From: Thermodesulfobacteriota bacterium
Lineage (GTDB): Bacteria; Desulfobacterota_D; UBA1144; Nemesobacterales; UBA2774
DNA length: 43,426 bases
Direction of reading: 5' to 3'
NCBI GenBank assembly: GCA_021604765.1
Contig: BQJP01000023.1
Location: forward strand, 1 to 43,426
Under the pieces are notes generated by a model. It saw nothing but the letters and a program-made list of their open reading frames with translations, had not been told where the DNA came from and searched no databases. Each line of letters starts with the position of its first letter. Position 1 is the first letter of the stretch. Positions 11,895 through 19,383 of the stretch are shown here, in pieces. Both the position numbers and the translations under genes were made by a program.

Positions 11895-12896
11895 TTAGAC
11901 AATTATTTCTTTTTTGGTTTTTATCAATAACCAAAGAAAGAATATTCCGCCTATAGAAGCTGTAATTATACCGACTGGTATTTCAACTGGTGAAATTACA
12001 GTCCTGGATAATGTATCAGCAGCGGTTAAAAATATCGCTCCAAGAAGAAAGGAGCTTGGCAGGATTATTCTATTATCCACTCCCAACAGCATTCTCAATA
12101 TATGAGGAATGATGAGTCCAACAAAACCGATTGGACCGGTAACTGCTATTACGGCTCCTGCGGCAAGTGATGTTGCAAAATAAATCTTTTTCTCCATCCT
12201 TCTGACATTAACACCAAGAGATGCTGCCACATCATCACCAAGTCCAAATAAATTCATTTCTTTTGTTAATGAAAGTAAAATTGCACATCCTGGTATTACA
12301 AATATCAGTGTTTTCCAAACCGTATCGAATCCAACAACATCCAAACTGCCCATTATCCAGCGCATTGTTTGAAGAGATTCCGTGAAACTGGAAAAAAATT
12401 GTATAAACATTACGACTGCCGCATATAAGAAGTTAGCAACAACCCCAGCCAGAAGTAATCTGCCTGTTGCAACTACTCCACCCACTTTGGAAATTGAATA
12501 AACGAACAACATGGTAAGTATAGAAAAAACAAAAGCTGATATAGAAACCATCGAAAATCCTAAAATACCTACTGCTAGACCTGATCTAATTGCTAATAGC
12601 GCTCCAAGGGAGGCTCCTCCAGATATTCCTAATGTAAAAGGGGAAGCTAGTGGGTTTCTAAAAAGAGCTTGTAGAGCGGCTCCAGCTATCGCAAGAGTGC
12701 CTCCAGCAATAGTTGCCATTAGTATCCTGGGGATCCTAATTTCCAAAAAAATAGTTTTAGACAGTTCGTCTGCATTCGAAATAGCATCTAGTGGTCCTAT
12801 GTTGTAGGTTCCACTAAACAGCGCTATGAATACTGTGATTATCCATAAAATGAATAAAATTGTTATCGAGATTGCAAATTTTCTGTTCGAGCTCAT
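11895..12896 (-). CDS. btuC: cobalamin ABC transporter permease
   Basis: A 333-residue FecCD/BtuC-family permease with about ten membrane segments. Characteristic blocks are RIPRILMATIAGGTLAIAGA (residues 53-72), NPLASPFTLGISGGASLGAL (about 82-101), and GPIGFVGLIIPHILRMLLG in the coupling region near residue 255. It would form the inner-membrane channel for the BtuF-bound substrate together with BtuD. On sequence alone the family also includes siderophore and haem permeases. The cobalamin call rests on the riboswitch-controlled operon and the btuB gene. It is the last gene of the operon, 51 bases after btuD. A 16-base palindrome without a T-run (11883-11898) covers its stop codon. Confidence 0.88.
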   Translation of the reverse strand: MSSNRKFAISITILFILWIITVFIALFSGTYNIGPLDAISNADELSKTIFLEIRIPRILMATIAGGTLAIAGAALQALFRNPLASPFTLGISGGASLGALLAIRSGLAVGILGFSMVSISAFVFSILTMLFVYSISKVGGVVATGRLLLAGVVANFLYAAVVMFIQFFSSFTESLQTMRWIMGSLDVVGFDTVWKTLIFVIPGCAILLSLTKEMNLFGLGDDVAASLGVNVRRMEKKIYFATSLAAGAVIAVTGPIGFVGLIIPHILRMLLGVDNRIILPSSFLLGAIFLTAADTLSRTVISPVEIPVGIITASIGGIFFLWLLIKTKKEIIV

Positions 12897-12947: not shown

Positions 12948-13721
12948 TTATTGATTAGGAAATACAAAAACTCTCCCGTTTTCCTTTTTTACCGTAACTT
13001 CAATTCCGTAAGCTGAGCTTAATAATTCACTATCAATTATTTGATCACTTTTTCCTTCAGCTAAGGTATTGCCATCTTTAAGTATCATAATATCATCGAA
13101 GTAAAATAGTGATGAAAATATGTCATGTGTAGCTGCGATTATTGATATTCCCTTATTATCTTTCAGTTCTCTCAATATATTCATTATTTCAGTTCTATGC
13201 TTTACATCAAGATATGTTGCCGGTTCATCTAAAATCATAATCTCAGGTTCTTGTACAAGACCTCGGGCTATAGAGGCAAGCTGTCTTTCACCTGAGGAGA
13301 CTTCACTTATCAACCGGTCTTTAAGATGTGATATTCCAACAGTTTCCAGAGCGTTTAGAGCAATGTCTTTATCAATGTCCCTCTCGAATTCGAACCTGCC
13401 TATGTATGGCGCTCTACCCATTAGAACAATTTCTTTCACAGTAAATGGAAAGGCAAACATCGGGTCTTGAGGTATATATGCTATTCCCTTGGCAATTTCT
13501 CTTCTATCCATTTTGGAGAGTTCTTGATCATTAAAGACGGCACTGCCGATTTTAGGTTTAAGCACTCCACATAGGATTTTAAGTAGAGTGGATTTTCCAG
13601 CCCCATTAGCGCCCAAAATTCCAAGCATATTTCCGGGCTGTATTGATAGGCTGATACCGTTTAGAACATTAGTACCATTATAAGAAAATCCTATGTCGCT
13701 GCAATTAATTATGGTTTCCAT
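12948..13721 (-). CDS. btuD: cobalamin ABC transporter ATP-binding protein
   Basis: A 257-residue ABC ATPase. Walker A is GANGAGKST (37-45), the Q-loop is near AYIPQDPMF, the signature is SSGER (142-146) with a non-standard first two residues, Walker B is IMILDEP (161-167) and the switch histidine is H199. It powers the BtuC channel from the cytoplasmic side. Its start overlaps the end of btuF by 17 bases, which points to translational coupling. Specificity for cobalamin is inferred from operon context; the same subfamily also serves iron-siderophore uptake. Confidence 0.88.
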   Translation of the reverse strand: METIINCSDIGFSYNGTNVLNGISLSIQPGNMLGILGANGAGKSTLLKILCGVLKPKIGSAVFNDQELSKMDRREIAKGIAYIPQDPMFAFPFTVKEIVLMGRAPYIGRFEFERDIDKDIALNALETVGISHLKDRLISEVSSGERQLASIARGLVQEPEIMILDEPATYLDVKHRTEIMNILRELKDNKGISIIAATHDIFSSLFYFDDIMILKDGNTLAEGKSDQIIDSELLSSAYGIEVTVKKENGRVFVFPNQ

Positions 13722-14589
13722 ATTTCTTTTTTAACTCTGGGTGCAGAATATCAGATAATATTTGAGCCCCATCAACGATTCTTTGGCTTGGATGTAGCAG
13801 AACTTTGCTTGATAGAATATGCACCTGGTTATTCTTTACAGCGTCTACCTGGTTAAGACTGCTCCAGATCTCTAGAATTTCATCCTCTTTATCCATTTTT
13901 TGATGATTTATTTCTATTATTACATCAGGATCAAAAGAAAAAATGGCTTCTTTTGTGATCTTGAGCGCATTTCTTTCATTTTTCACCACATTTTCTCCAC
14001 CAGCCAAAGTGATGAGCTCATCAATGTAATTATTTCTTCCTATAACATATATGTCTTCCAGAGTTCCGGGATTTCTTCCCACTACAATTAATACACTTTG
14101 TTTATTTAAACTCTTAGTTTTCTCTTCTATTTGATTAAGCTTAGTATCTATGTGATCAGTTAATTTTTGAGCTTCTTCTTCCTTGCCAAGTATTATTCCT
14201 AATTCGGTGATGGATTGTATTATGTCAGCGATTGAATCATTACTTTTAGCTGTGAATGTCTTAAGACCCAGACTCCGGAGTTTATCTCCGAAACTAATAT
14301 CCTGATCTTTCATTAATACAACCAGATCAGGTTTTAAAACCAAAATGGCTTCATAGTTGGGATTAATCCACCCACCCACTTTTGGTAGGTCCTTAACCTC
14401 AGTAGGATATTCATCATAAATTGTTACACCCACAATCTGATCTAAATATCCAAGCGCATATATCACTTGAGTTAGGTTTGGAGATAAGGAAACTATACGC
14501 TGTGGATTATTGTCTGAGAGGCTATAACTAGCTGTAATGATTACAAATACAGTTGCTAAGAATGTTCTTTGTATTAACTTTGATATCAT
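13705..14589 (-). CDS. btuF: periplasmic cobalamin-binding protein
   Basis: A 294-residue substrate-binding protein of the helical-backbone type (BtuF/FhuD cluster). The signal peptide covers about residues 1-24 (FLATVFVIITASYSLS core). The mature part has the family pattern RIVSLSPNLTQVIYALG, then PKVGGWINPNYEAILVLKPDLVV and a C-terminal HPSQRIVDGAQIL. It delivers the ligand to BtuCD in the periplasm. It is a secreted paralogue of the next gene upstream, which has no signal peptide and ends 2 bases before this gene starts. Confidence 0.87.
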   Translation of the reverse strand: MISKLIQRTFLATVFVIITASYSLSDNNPQRIVSLSPNLTQVIYALGYLDQIVGVTIYDEYPTEVKDLPKVGGWINPNYEAILVLKPDLVVLMKDQDISFGDKLRSLGLKTFTAKSNDSIADIIQSITELGIILGKEEEAQKLTDHIDTKLNQIEEKTKSLNKQSVLIVVGRNPGTLEDIYVIGRNNYIDELITLAGGENVVKNERNALKITKEAIFSFDPDVIIEINHQKMDKEDEILEIWSSLNQVDAVKNNQVHILSSKVLLHPSQRIVDGAQILSDILHPELKKKYGNHN

Positions 14590-14591
14590 GT

Positions 14592-15539
14592 TTATCCTGA
14601 AAATAATTGTAACTGCATATAGTTTCTGAGATTAATAATTGACTCTGGGGGAGGACTATAGTTCTTAATGATTTCAGGGTGTATGGCTTTTGCCAGTATT
14701 TCAAGTCCATCCACTATTCTTGGTCCCGGTCTGCTGAAATATGAGTTTGCATCTACAACATAAATCTCTCCTTTATTTGTTGCTGGAAGAGAAAACCACT
14801 CGTCTTTAGAAGTTACGGTATCCAATTCGTCAATGGTTTTTTCTATATCAAAACCGCAGGGCATTATAAATAGCATATGAGGTGCGAAATCTACAATTTC
14901 TTCCCAAGTGGCTTTAAATGAAGGTTCTCCAGGCTTTCCTAAACCGTTTTCTCCACCAGCAATTTCTACCATCTCGGGCACCCAATGACCTCCGACAAAA
15001 GGAGGGTCAAGCCACTCGAGACAAAACACCCTTGGACGGTCTCTCTCGTTTTCAAGTTGTGATCTGACTCTTTCTACTCTTGCTTTGAGACTGTCTGTAA
15101 TCTCCTTTGCCCTTTCCTGTGTTCCTGTAGCTTCGCCTATTGTGGTTATAGTATCGAAGATTTCATATATCGTTGTCGGTTCTAAAGAAATTATCTCCGG
15201 AGTATGTCCTAGTACCTCTAGTGCCTCCATGACCTGATTGCCGGATACTGCGCACACTTCACACAGCTTCTGAGTCAGGATAATATCGGGGTTAGCTTCT
15301 TTAAGAGCTTCTTTATCTACAAGATAAGTACTCTTTCCTTCAGATGCATTTTTCATTACAAGATCATCTATTTCCTTACTAGATAGCTTTTTGTGGTCAA
15401 GGAAGCTCATGATAACAACTTTCTTTTCTTTAACCTCAGGCGGATAATTACACTCATGCGTTACTCCCACCAGGTTGTCGCCCAGACCCAGCTCATAAAC
15501 AATTTCAGTAGTACTAGGAAGAAATGAACAAATACGCAT
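14592..15539 (-). CDS. signal-less BtuF-like cobalamin/metal-complex binding protein
   Basis: A 315-residue protein of the same helical-backbone receptor fold as BtuF (opening MRICSFLPSTTEIVYELGLG; later PSFKATWEEIVDFAPHMLFI and RPGPRIVDGLEIL). It begins directly at the fold, and a stop codon lies in frame just upstream (15543-15545), so there is no signal peptide and it should stay in the cytoplasm. Two cysteines form a CxxC (KLCEVCAVSG, C93 and C96), with a further Cys in IMPCGFD. These could bind a metal or the corrinoid, but that is inference. It stands between the propeller lipoprotein and btuF in the riboswitch operon. It could be an intracellular cobalamin carrier or reservoir. Similar signal-less proteins are known in other bacteria, but their role is unclear to me. 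Confidence 0.75.
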   Translation of the reverse strand: MRICSFLPSTTEIVYELGLGDNLVGVTHECNYPPEVKEKKVVIMSFLDHKKLSSKEIDDLVMKNASEGKSTYLVDKEALKEANPDIILTQKLCEVCAVSGNQVMEALEVLGHTPEIISLEPTTIYEIFDTITTIGEATGTQERAKEITDSLKARVERVRSQLENERDRPRVFCLEWLDPPFVGGHWVPEMVEIAGGENGLGKPGEPSFKATWEEIVDFAPHMLFIMPCGFDIEKTIDELDTVTSKDEWFSLPATNKGEIYVVDANSYFSRPGPRIVDGLEILAKAIHPEIIKNYSPPPESIINLRNYMQLQLFSG

Positions 15540-15635: not shown

Positions 15636-17129
15636 TTACTGCGTCTGAAGAGTTGTATCTACTGATCCCAACTGTTCGCTAATACCTGTTATAAAATATA
15701 GATCTGCTCCGGTGAAGTCTACTCCAGACTCTCCAGATCTGATAGCAAGTGACTGTACACCATCAAAAAGCTGTGAATTAGGACTATCACCTCTAAGACC
15801 TGCAGGAAATGGGGTTATATAGGGGAAAGGGTCTACTTGATCATTACTTGTATCCAGAACAGCTATCTGGTCTGAATTAAAAAGTGTGGTGAAAAGCAAA
15901 CCGTCTTTTATTGCTAGGTCAGCTGTGTTATTAAGATCACTGAGATCAGTGATAATTATCGGATTAGCTGTACCGTTAATTACTGTGCCTTCAAACAGGT
16001 CGACTTTTAAAAGCGCTCCTACCAAGCCTAATCCTGTGTAGCCGAATCCATCAGAAGTAGCGGTCAAATTATTAGGAAGGCATACAGTTGGGTTTTGCTG
16101 GCTCAATGGAATATCAATAGTATCAAAGACTGAATCATCCAAGGTATCGATTATATCGATTGACGGTGGGAAACTGGTATCACAGGTAAACTCAAAAGTA
16201 TCAAAGTCGAATAATATATTTCCGTTGTTTAGGGCATATAGTATCTCATCAATTTCTACCATACTACTAGTGTTAGCACCTGAAGCATTGATAGTACCTA
16301 TAACCTGATTGGTCGCGGTGTTTAAGACAGTAACAAAACCGTTGCCATTGGGGTTGAAATTGTCATCCAAGTTATTGTTAGTTATATAAACTTTATTGTT
16401 TACAACTTTGACACCAGCCGGTTCCTCAAAAGTATTGGAAGGCACATTAATAACATTTTGGCATGGTTGTGTATTTCCCTGATCCTCTGCACTAACAATT
16501 AGCGTCTGACAAACACCACTAAAAATGTTTACTACAGCAACACTCTGACCAATGTTATTCGCAACATAAGCTTGGTCATTTCCAAAGAAATCCATAGATA
16601 TTGGGTTAGATCCAGGGGGAACAACTATTGTTCCAAGAAATTGAGGAGGATTCTGGTTTAATTCAAATATTTGAATATTATTTGAAAACCCGTTTATTAC
16701 GTAAGCTCTGCTTCCACGTATTTTAATATCAGCAGGAACGCTACCCAGAGTTGCTAAATTACGTTCTACTGCATTTCTTAGAAGTGTTACCCCTATTTCA
16801 ATGTCTATAACAACATTTTCGTTATTAGTTACTAGCACATTGAATAAATCATTTGTGTTCCCCGTAAATGTTGGATCAAAACTGCCGTCGGCAAGTCCAA
16901 AAGTAGTCTTAGTTTCTGAGGTACTTAAATTAGTAACTTCAACCGTGCTTCCCGGTGGTACAGATCCTGCAGTGCCACCGACTTTGATAGTTTGACTTGT
17001 CCCGGTTCGTTCGGCTACAGCCAAAATATCACCTGTCGGAACAAAGCCTCCTCCATCTCCTCCGCTGTCACAACCTATAAAAACTGCTCCAAAAAAACTA
17101 AAAACAAAAATTGTTAATAATAGTTTCAT
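15636..17129 (-). CDS. seven-bladed beta-propeller lipoprotein in the cobalamin operon (BtuG-like by context)
   Basis: A 497-residue protein. Residues 1-20 are a lipoprotein signal ending in the lipobox FIGC with Cys20, followed by a Gly/Asp-rich linker (DSGGDGGG). Residues about 35-115 look like a small beta-sandwich (GGTAGSVPPGSTVEVTNLST). From about residue 130 to the end there are seven YncE-like strand repeats, including GSRAYVINGFSNNIQIFEL, NDQAYVANNIGQSVAVVNI, NKVYITNNN...GFVTVLNTATN, EILYALNNG, GFGYTGLGLVGALLKVDL, DGLLFTTLFNSDQIAVLDT and ADLYFITG. It lies 36 bases downstream of btuB under the same riboswitch. In Bacteroides, the BtuG lipoprotein is a propeller beside BtuB that captures cobalamin at the cell surface. 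Function here is inferred from fold and position only. Several paired cysteines may form disulfides. Confidence 0.75.
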   Translation of the reverse strand: MKLLLTIFVFSFFGAVFIGCDSGGDGGGFVPTGDILAVAERTGTSQTIKVGGTAGSVPPGSTVEVTNLSTSETKTTFGLADGSFDPTFTGNTNDLFNVLVTNNENVVIDIEIGVTLLRNAVERNLATLGSVPADIKIRGSRAYVINGFSNNIQIFELNQNPPQFLGTIVVPPGSNPISMDFFGNDQAYVANNIGQSVAVVNIFSGVCQTLIVSAEDQGNTQPCQNVINVPSNTFEEPAGVKVVNNKVYITNNNLDDNFNPNGNGFVTVLNTATNQVIGTINASGANTSSMVEIDEILYALNNGNILFDFDTFEFTCDTSFPPSIDIIDTLDDSVFDTIDIPLSQQNPTVCLPNNLTATSDGFGYTGLGLVGALLKVDLFEGTVINGTANPIIITDLSDLNNTADLAIKDGLLFTTLFNSDQIAVLDTSNDQVDPFPYITPFPAGLRGDSPNSQLFDGVQSLAIRSGESGVDFTGADLYFITGISEQLGSVDTTLQTQ

Positions 17130-17165
17130 CCTATTATCCTCCTTTGAGTTGTTATATTTAGAATT

Positions 17166-19052
17166 TTATTTTTCAAAATTAACTCCTGCTGTTATAAAAA
17201 AAGTTCTTCCCGGAAGTGGGAAATCTAATGCATCCCTTACATCCAAGTTATTAAAGAGATTCTTCACTTCAAAAGTTGCAAATACACTTTTCCATTCGCC
17301 TTTAAGACCGATATTGTGTGTTGTCCTCGGATCTGTAGTGCGAGAGTTAGGAAATGCACTTAACGGAATGCTGTCTACGTAATGACTTTCCCAAAATACA
17401 GCTGCTATGCTATGGCTAAGCACTGCTCTGAAATCAGCTTTGTTTCTAGGTCTGCCGGGTAACTGAGCTCCAGTTTCATCAATCTCACCTGACAAGAATG
17501 TATAAGCACCATATAACTCAAGGAAATCAAAAGGTCTTAGTATCAAGCTTGTTTCAACTCCCTGCTCATCAACATTCCCAACATTTCGTGGCTCTATCCT
17601 TTGAGCGCTTATGAAGACAAATAAAATAAGATCATCTATATGGCTTCTAAAATATGTGACTTCGAGAGCAGCCTTGGGATGTGAAATTAATACGCCGATA
17701 TCAAAATCATACGAGGTCTCCGGTTTAAGATCAGGATTACCGCCTATAAAACCTTCTTCGGGAAAAAAGAGCTCACCAAAACTAGGCGCTCTGAATGATC
17801 TTCCTAAATTCGCTTTGAATGATAGATAATTCTTTGGCGATACGACGATTCCGAGTCTAGGTGAAAATCCTACATCTGTAGTAGTTTCATCCTGATGGGT
17901 TGTCCAAATGTCTAATCGCAAGACCGGATTAATTAACAAAATTTCATCAAATAAACTGATTTCATCACTTGCGAATGCGCTGTATGTAAATCGTTTTGGA
18001 TTATCAAAATCATCATCGCTTAAAAATTCCGCTCTCGCCTCAGTTGCAAAAGTAATAGTCTGATTATATGGTGCAAACCAGGTGAGTCTTGGGTTGATGC
18101 CGAATGCGTTTGTTTTGCTCAATGTGTCAATGGGAACTCCAATAGTTGGGGTTGGGTTTGTAAATTTAAGATAATCAAATCTGTTATATAGATTAATATC
18201 CAGATCAAGCTCTGGTCTTACAAACTGTTCTTTTGAGATATTTACACTGGTCAGGTTTCTTGCATCTTTCTGCGTAGCATTGGGCTGCTGAAATTCTCCT
18301 AGACCCGGCACTCCTCTGTCATCATAAAAGAACTCGTTTAATAAGCTTATCTCCCAGCCGTTATCAAAATCGTAAGCGAGTTTTGCCAGAAAGCTCTCGG
18401 AATGGAAATCGTTATTAATTCTTTTGAGTGTCAGGTCATTGACCGATTTGAATTTAAAATCACCTTCGCTTTGGGCATGAGCAAATGACAATAAATAACT
18501 AAAATTTCCTATCTTTTGAGCTCTTCCAATATTAAGAGCAAAAGTTTCATAAGAGCCGTAGGTTGCTGAGCCAAAAGTAAATGGTTCATCAGTGGGCTTG
18601 GTTATAATATTAACTACGCCGCCCAATGCGTCGGTGCCCGCAAAGGCGGATGCACCGCCCCTTATTACTTCAAACTTGTCAACATAACCAACTGGTATTG
18701 TAGAAAGATCTACACCCCCGCCTAAAGGGTTATTTAATCTCACTCCGTCTAAAAGAATGACTACTTGATCACTCGATGACCCTCGAATGGACATTGTCTT
18801 TAGTTGTCCGAACCCACCGAAGTCTCTTACCACTACTCCCGGAGAAAATGATAAAAGTTCGGCTGCCGTTTTGTATTCGCCTGTAAAGTTCTCAACTTCT
18901 ATTATGGTAGAGAATGCGGACGGGTAGTTAAGAGGAGGCTCAATTGGCGTGTCCTCGACAATAACAGTTTCTAATGTTGTATCTTCATTTTCCTGAGCTG
19001 TTGCTATAGAAGCTAGGAAAATTAAAAGTGCGGTTAGTAATAACCTGATTAT
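17166..19052 (-). CDS. btuB: TonB-dependent cobalamin receptor with a near-cognate start codon
   Basis: An outer-membrane 22-stranded receptor of about 628 residues. The signal peptide (RLLLTALLIFLASIATA) is followed by a TonB-box-like ETVIVEDTP. The plug has GVVVRDFGGFGQLKTMSIRG, VVILLDGVRLNN and GASAFAGTDALGGVVNIIT. The barrel ends PLPGRTFFITAGVNFEK. A GTG at 18831-18833 lies inside the plug and cannot be the start. Upstream, the frame stays open to a TAA at 19065-19067 and holds no ATG, GTG or TTG at the signal peptide. A GGAGG (19058-19062) lies 5 bases before ATA (19050-19052) and 8 bases before ATC (19047-19049); one of these is the likely start, or the base call is wrong. Cobalamin specificity comes from the riboswitch. 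Confidence 0.88.
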   Translation of the reverse strand: MIRLLLTALLIFLASIATAQENEDTTLETVIVEDTPIEPPLNYPSAFSTIIEVENFTGEYKTAAELLSFSPGVVVRDFGGFGQLKTMSIRGSSSDQVVILLDGVRLNNPLGGGVDLSTIPVGYVDKFEVIRGGASAFAGTDALGGVVNIITKPTDEPFTFGSATYGSYETFALNIGRAQKIGNFSYLLSFAHAQSEGDFKFKSVNDLTLKRINNDFHSESFLAKLAYDFDNGWEISLLNEFFYDDRGVPGLGEFQQPNATQKDARNLTSVNISKEQFVRPELDLDINLYNRFDYLKFTNPTPTIGVPIDTLSKTNAFGINPRLTWFAPYNQTITFATEARAEFLSDDDFDNPKRFTYSAFASDEISLFDEILLINPVLRLDIWTTHQDETTTDVGFSPRLGIVVSPKNYLSFKANLGRSFRAPSFGELFFPEEGFIGGNPDLKPETSYDFDIGVLISHPKAALEVTYFRSHIDDLILFVFISAQRIEPRNVGNVDEQGVETSLILRPFDFLELYGAYTFLSGEIDETGAQLPGRPRNKADFRAVLSHSIAAVFWESHYVDSIPLSAFPNSRTTDPRTTHNIGLKGEWKSVFATFEVKNLFNNLDVRDALDFPLPGRTFFITAGVNFEK

Positions 19053-19060
19053 GAATACCT

Positions 19061-19080
19061 CCGGTTATCTAAATAACCGG
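19061..19080 (-). promoter_or_regulatory. hairpin at the btuB ribosome binding site (riboswitch expression platform)
   Basis: CCGGTTAT, loop TTAG, ATAACCGG: a perfect 8-base stem whose 3' arm ends in the first bases of the GGAGG Shine-Dalgarno. Just upstream, CCTCCCGG (19077-19084) can alternatively pair with CCGGAGG. A G-run, GGGGGGAG (19113-19120), can pair with the C-rich segment. These mutually exclusive pairings fit a riboswitch controlling ribosome access. No U-run follows, so control looks translational. The pairing scheme is inferred from the sequence. Confidence 0.65.
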
Positions 19081-19138
19081 GAGGCGGAATGTGTTTAATA
19101 CCCATTTACCTTCTCCCCCCGAAGAAAAGTAAGAAATT

Positions 19139-19319
19139 AGTACTAAGGCAGGTGTTCTGGCTTGTAGCCTCGGGACTCCTTTGCGCCTTCCCAGAATAAT
19201 TCCAGTGACATAATGCAAAGGACTTTACGGACTACTTACAGCAGCGAGTGGGCTGCACCGGATTCTCACCGGATTTCCCATTTAGGCTCTAGAGCCATGC
19301 TCTAAAGCAACCTCGTACT
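19139..19319 (-). ncRNA. cobalamin riboswitch (AdoCbl-type aptamer)
   Basis: The minus strand holds the conserved core: GTCACTGG (19202-19209), TGGGAAGGCGCAAAGGAGTC, CCGAGGCTACAAGCCAG and the closing ACACCTGCC. AATCCGGTGAGAATCCGGTG and GCAGCCCACTCGCTGCTGT form the expected central helices. AGTAC at 19315-19319 pairs with GTACT at 19139-19143 as the closing P1 stem. It precedes btuB and the five genes after it, so high cobalamin should shut off the uptake operon. Confidence 0.96.
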
Positions 19320-19353
19320 TTAAATTTTAAAAGATCTATAAAATAGAATTTAC

Positions 19354-19383
19354 ATAATAACTCTATAATTGTTCACGTGTCAA
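19354..19383 (-). promoter_or_regulatory. promoter of the cobalamin uptake operon
   Basis: On the minus strand, TTGACA (19378-19383) and TATTAT (19354-19359) are separated by 18 bases. The expected start of transcription, near 19347, is about 28 bases before the aptamer. Confidence 0.7.

Follow-up and report, generated by a model that had tools for sequence, protein, structure and literature searches.

The second gene of a cobalamin riboswitch-controlled btuB operon in a Thermodesulfobacteriota genome encodes a 497-amino-acid lipoprotein that is probably a BtuG-like, vitamin B12-capturing partner of the outer membrane receptor BtuB, found here outside Bacteroidetes. BtuG homologues and lipoprotein-capped TonB transporters have been stated to be exclusive to Bacteroidetes and tied to gut competition (PMC6143338, PMC10404256), and no paper describing BtuG outside Bacteroidetes was found in the open-access literature. 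The BtuG-like reading is favored because of the linkage of the gene to btuB, the position of BtuG proteins as nearest solved relatives, the recurrence of riboswitch/BtuB linkage in other lineages and a split in the phylogenetic tree; an acidic charge as in BtuG2 and the probable need of the host for B12 speak for it as well. The initial annotation of the stretch of DNA analyzed (43,426 nucleotides, hereafter the window) had proposed such a capture lipoprotein, and the btuB linkage, together with sequence and fold comparisons in which BtuG comes first, lends support to that proposal. On the minus strand, the gene order is cobalamin riboswitch, btuB, lipoprotein gene, btuF1, btuF2, btuD and btuC, with the lipoprotein gene starting 36 bases past btuB and btuF1 96 bases past the lipoprotein gene. 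The features, with positions in the window, are the following:

19354-19383, minus strand: putative sigma-70-like promoter (TTGACA-18-TATTAT; 11 of 12 consensus positions), directly upstream of the riboswitch
19130-19330, minus strand: cobalamin riboswitch aptamer (RF00174; 92 bits, E=1.1e-21; full-length, model positions 1-189 of 189)
19057-19084, minus strand: hairpin CCUCCCGGUUA-loop-UAACCGGAGG enclosing the btuB ribosome-binding site, between aptamer and btuB
17166-19052, minus strand: btuB, TonB-dependent B12 receptor (plug PF07715 and barrel PF00593)
15636-17129, minus strand: second operon gene, for the putative BtuG-like lipoprotein of 497 amino acids (24 genomes of the order; PDB profile matches to BtuG1/2/3)
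17070-17129, minus strand: signal peptide and lipobox (VFIG-C20), ending at Cys20, with invariant lipid Cys
17034-17069, minus strand: Gly/acid-rich linker, residues 21-32, its character conserved in all orthologues
16779-17033, minus strand: N-terminal beta-sandwich (Ig or carboxypeptidase-regulatory-like), residues 33-117, seven modelled strands
15639-16778, minus strand: beta-propeller domain, residues 118-497 (blades 1-4 modelled, others from sequence repeats)
14592-15539, minus strand: btuF1, periplasmic-binding-protein-like (PF01497)
13705-14589, minus strand: btuF2, periplasmic binding protein with signal peptide (PF01497, E=1.4e-36)
12948-13721, minus strand: btuD, ABC ATPase (PF00005)
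11895-12896, minus strand: btuC, FecCD-type permease (PF01032, E=2.6e-87)

The riboswitch score exceeds the RF00174 gathering threshold of 31.5 bits, and this is the single cobalamin riboswitch found in the host genome. With a full-length aptamer followed by btuB and then the lipoprotein gene, the riboswitch-controlled btuB operon described initially is confirmed. The promoter call is weak because matches of this kind are overall not above chance, and terminator predictions in the window are likewise at chance level. Almost all of the 16 leaders examined can form a stem over the G-rich ribosome-binding stretch, and in relatives (e.g., L042 and L044) the arms of the hairpin differ in sequence yet stay complementary, which makes translational control the likely mode. 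The hairpin masking the btuB ribosome-binding site is thus likely to be a translational switch. The btuB frame itself contains no ATG, GTG or TTG start and opens at ATA/ATC behind GGAGG, as it does in sister species. Within the genus, the start at 19052 (minus strand) reads ATA/ATC in three species, ATT in a fourth, where an in-frame stop lies just ahead, and ATC in L051, and other genera use GTG, TTG or ATG; a rare btuB initiation codon is conserved under the riboswitch in the genus of the window. The closest NCBIfam model of the btuB product is TIGR01779 (TonB-B12), with a score under the equivalog cut-off. Further downstream, the annotated btuF1 frame (14592-15539, minus strand) has no evident signal peptide despite its BtuF-like character.

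The association of the lipoprotein with btuB is conserved throughout the order. The lipoprotein is present in 24 genomes, all of the same order, and btuB directly precedes its gene at every locus with an assembled upstream side (18 plus the window), so that the btuB neighborhood pointed out in the initial annotation is kept in relatives. A cobalamin riboswitch precedes btuB wherever the btuB leader lies on the contig (16 of 16, plus the window), and btuF1 adjoins the lipoprotein gene in nearly all orthologous loci, even in those without btuF2, btuD and btuC. Orthologous btuB genes without the lipoprotein gene beside them occur only in G011 and G030, in both of which the btuB match stops no more than 3 bases short of the end of the contig. 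As a control, none of five unrelated propellers of the same phylum is located beside BtuB, as opposed to 15 out of 15 for the lipoprotein family.

The primary structure of the lipoprotein is equally well conserved. The lipid Cys is present in all 18 full-length orthologues, and four Cys residues of the propeller (Cys207, Cys223, Cys316 and Cys350) are invariant among them. AlphaFold2 modelling was based on four sequences (the window and three loci) and produced the beta-sandwich and blades 1-4 with fair confidence. The sandwich comprises seven strands at residues 35-116 (pLDDT about 50-88) and matches PF13620 weakly in six of the 18 family members. Both the lipobox at Cys20 and a beta-sandwich ahead of the propeller had been read correctly from the sequence. 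Past residue ~340 the pLDDT drops below 40, and blades 5-7 are missing from the model owing to the shallow four-sequence alignment. Three further blades can be read from sequence repeats in the last third of the protein, and over about 265 residues the alignment between a multi-lineage profile and BtuG1, a solved seven-bladed propeller, is co-linear. The seven-bladed propeller claimed initially therefore stands for the four blades modelled, whereas blades 5-7 come from the repeats, which makes a total of seven likely although not proven.

To compare the lipoprotein with known propellers, a family profile built from the 18 full-length orthologues was searched against the PDB up to E=10. The top matches are BtuG1 (8ptf, 8ptd, 8blw; E=3e-8), followed by BtuG2 and BtuG3, with an NHL protein at 1e-3 falling between BtuG entries; neither YncE nor 1l0q, a generic YVTN protein, appears up to this limit. 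Foldseek searches with two separate partial models returned BtuG first each time, and the first twelve matches of the second model are all BtuG, a result not fully independent of the sequence search because Foldseek weighs sequence as well as shape. The likeness to BtuG suggested at the outset is thus recovered both by the family profile and by Foldseek with partial models. However, hhalign scores a generic YVTN propeller as high as BtuG1 and the multi-lineage profile matches 1l0q ahead of BtuG, both of which count against a BtuG-specific kinship; since hhalign is not discriminating, the case for common descent with BtuG specifically is carried by other tests. A Pfam scan of the window lipoprotein called no family. 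PF16819, in which BtuG1 falls, is not matched by the window protein and is weakly matched by four of the 18 orthologues (best E=4e-4), and its cut-off is passed by three riboswitch-linked relatives from other lineages.

These results bear on whether the protein could instead be a common YVTN/YncE propeller whose role is a different one, be it structural, redox or enzymatic, and whose co-regulation with B12 uptake is coincidental. Such an explanation would fit the hhalign result and the fact that the pocket residues could not be mapped, but it is very improbable given that the linkage to btuB and the riboswitch recurs in many lineages and that the tree sets btu-linked proteins apart from generic propellers. 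E. coli YncE and YVTN propellers belong to the same fold superfamily as the window lipoprotein but differ from it in having neither a lipid anchor nor a B12 operon; the E. coli YncE gene adjoins a TonB receptor gene. The E. coli BtuB-BtuF-BtuCD system resembles the window operon in its receptor, binding protein and ABC importer, and differs in lacking a propeller partner. XusB of the Bacteroides XusAB system, a xenosiderophore lid, is also a lipoprotein with a propeller that partners a TonB-dependent receptor (PMC13142918), but it has a siderophore ligand, belongs to DUF4374 and is not matched in the family-profile PDB search.

The BtuG-like reading draws on the closest parallel, which is with BtuG1/2/3 of B. 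thetaiotaomicron (8blw, 8bmx, 8okv; also 3dsm of B. uniformis; PF16819/DUF5074). Like these proteins, the window protein is a strongly acidic lipoprotein propeller whose gene lies beside btuB with a cobalamin riboswitch, and BtuG is its best match in sequence and fold. Unlike BtuG (about 23% identity to BtuG1), it comes from a non-Bacteroidetes genome, and its family has an Ig-like domain before the propeller and four conserved Cys, is practically without Trp, carries no Bacteroidetes export signal and is not called by PF16819. The net charge of the mature protein is about -40 (family range -36 to -62), compared with -18e for BtuG2 (PMC10404256). Acidity is also found in other exported proteins of the window, albeit at a lower level per residue, which counts against the charge argument. 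Tryptophan is missing from 16 of the 18 orthologues and occurs once in each of the remaining two, and since Trp194 and Trp272 are part of the pocket of BtuG2, this near-absence counts against a BtuG-like role. The linker after the lipid Cys is of the CDSGGDGGG type and does not contain a Bacteroidetes lipoprotein export signal, e.g., the MKWD found after the Cys of BtuG2 (PMC6143338). By analogy, the lipoprotein probably works like BtuG, yet outside PF16819 and without this export signal and the pocket tryptophans.

The linker and the gene order are also relevant to the orientation of the protein. In most orthologues the residue that follows the lipid Cys is an Asp or Glu, and in enterobacteria an Asp at this position keeps lipoproteins off the outer membrane. 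No surface-export signal for lipoproteins is known in this lineage, which counts against a surface lid. The protein could be a periplasm-facing lipoprotein whose propeller relays the corrinoid from BtuB to BtuF, in agreement with the location of its gene between btuB and btuF. We consider this relay unlikely, although less so than an ordinary propeller, as the periplasm already has two BtuF-like proteins at its service, type IX secretion tails occur on related btu-linked propellers and the relatives with the closest solved structures act as surface lids. BtuG itself binds corrinoids very tightly, in the femtomolar range, and forms a stable lid on BtuB at the cell surface. For the BtuG-like capture protein, B12 binding, a surface orientation, a complex with BtuB and a lid mechanism are all proposed by analogy. 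In the corresponding model, deduced from riboswitch and hairpin as far as control is concerned, scarcity of B12 would lead the riboswitch to free the btuB ribosome-binding site, resulting in expression of the operon. The lipoprotein would be lipidated at Cys20 and seated on the outer membrane beside BtuB, where the acidic face of its propeller would bind corrinoids and pass them to BtuB as a lid, in the manner of Bacteroides BtuG, after which BtuF and BtuCD would finish import.

The host appears to have use for such a system. Its genome encodes MetH, methylmalonyl-CoA mutase, IcmF and TonB, and CbiC was looked for in it and not found; with MetH and the mutases present, the host probably needs imported B12. 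No PF00593 match other than the btuB product was found in the host genome (G000, 3.4 Mb), which thus has one TonB-dependent receptor barrel versus three TonB C-terminal domains. Its gene content suggests a host that scavenges B12 and uses its TonB system mainly for B12 import. The records of two genus-mates list them as Deltaproteobacteria and Thermodesulfobacteriales metagenome-assembled genomes, and the host is therefore not a member of Bacteroidetes, in keeping with the initial impression of the window. Transfer of a BtuBG module from Bacteroidetes into this lineage, which had been considered from the start, would explain that the nearest solved relatives come from Bacteroides. It seems scarcely credible, however, because the BtuB family profile matches E. 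coli BtuB best in the PDB (E=3e-36), ahead of the Bacteroides BtuBs, identity to BtuG1 is as low as stated above, and in a small maximum-likelihood tree the lipoprotein family forms one deep, well-supported group within its own order and is placed outside the Bacteroidetes BtuGs. A transferred system is thus not supported, the lipoprotein being old and conserved in the order.

Similar propellers also occur beyond this order. A blind search of 291 genomes with the family profile (E<=1e-8) matched 17 genomes outside the phylum, with a cobalamin riboswitch at 16 of the 17 places and a BtuB-like receptor at 14. A second query was a stretch of 229 residues from Bacteroides BtuG1, as given in the alignment output of the PDB search. 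It matched 18 genomes, nine of which share places with the family-profile search; of the nine matches elsewhere, six also have a cobalamin riboswitch. In the maximum-likelihood tree, a branch (97/97) splits generic YVTN propellers from btu-linked proteins plus BtuG. With the generic YVTN proteins as outgroup, the tree agrees with B12 propellers having arisen once, its branches being long and its root assumed. Some btu-linked relatives have a C-terminal tail of the type IX secretion or FlgD-like kind, which points to work outside the outer membrane; some have a dockerin and some a lipobox. Six full 16S rRNAs of the out-group genomes are 73-82% identical to each other, and in none of them is a site for the Bacteroidetes probes CF319a or BAC303 found at 0-1 mismatch. 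At least one match (L149, G110) looks like an ordinary Bacteroidetes BtuG, and at another locus (L099, G147) no B12 genes are located next to the propeller.

On balance, we lean slightly towards BtuG being a single branch of an ancient, broadly distributed family of propellers that catch B12, accompany BtuB in many phyla and reach the surface by different routes, which would include a lipid anchor here and type IX secretion tails, dockerin-type or simple export signals elsewhere. Lipoprotein-capped TonB transporters would then not be a Bacteroidetes invention, and B12 capture at the cell surface would be a general strategy. Hints of wider B12 propellers already exist, since DUF4465 B12-binding proteins in eight clades are often found near PF16819 propellers according to a 2026 paper (PMC13398666). 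For the order of the window, the analysis provides a likely function for a family left unnamed by Pfam and names proteins that can be tested.

Several relatives show additional architectures. In L102, L105 and L106 a common domain of ~190 residues (GHGGEI..F.DN.IVD..G.DF.VFEN) lies C-terminal to the propeller, a position comparable to that of the BtuH domain fused to BtuG1. Neither Pfam nor the set of solved structures contains a match to it, and in L105 it is not a known B12-binding domain. In L100 (9344-12379, minus strand), a BtuC permease and a BtuB receptor share one open frame of 1012 amino acids, which represents either a fusion or an assembly error. Finally, in L103 (5425-10877, minus strand) one BtuB is flanked by two BtuG-like propellers under one cobalamin riboswitch.
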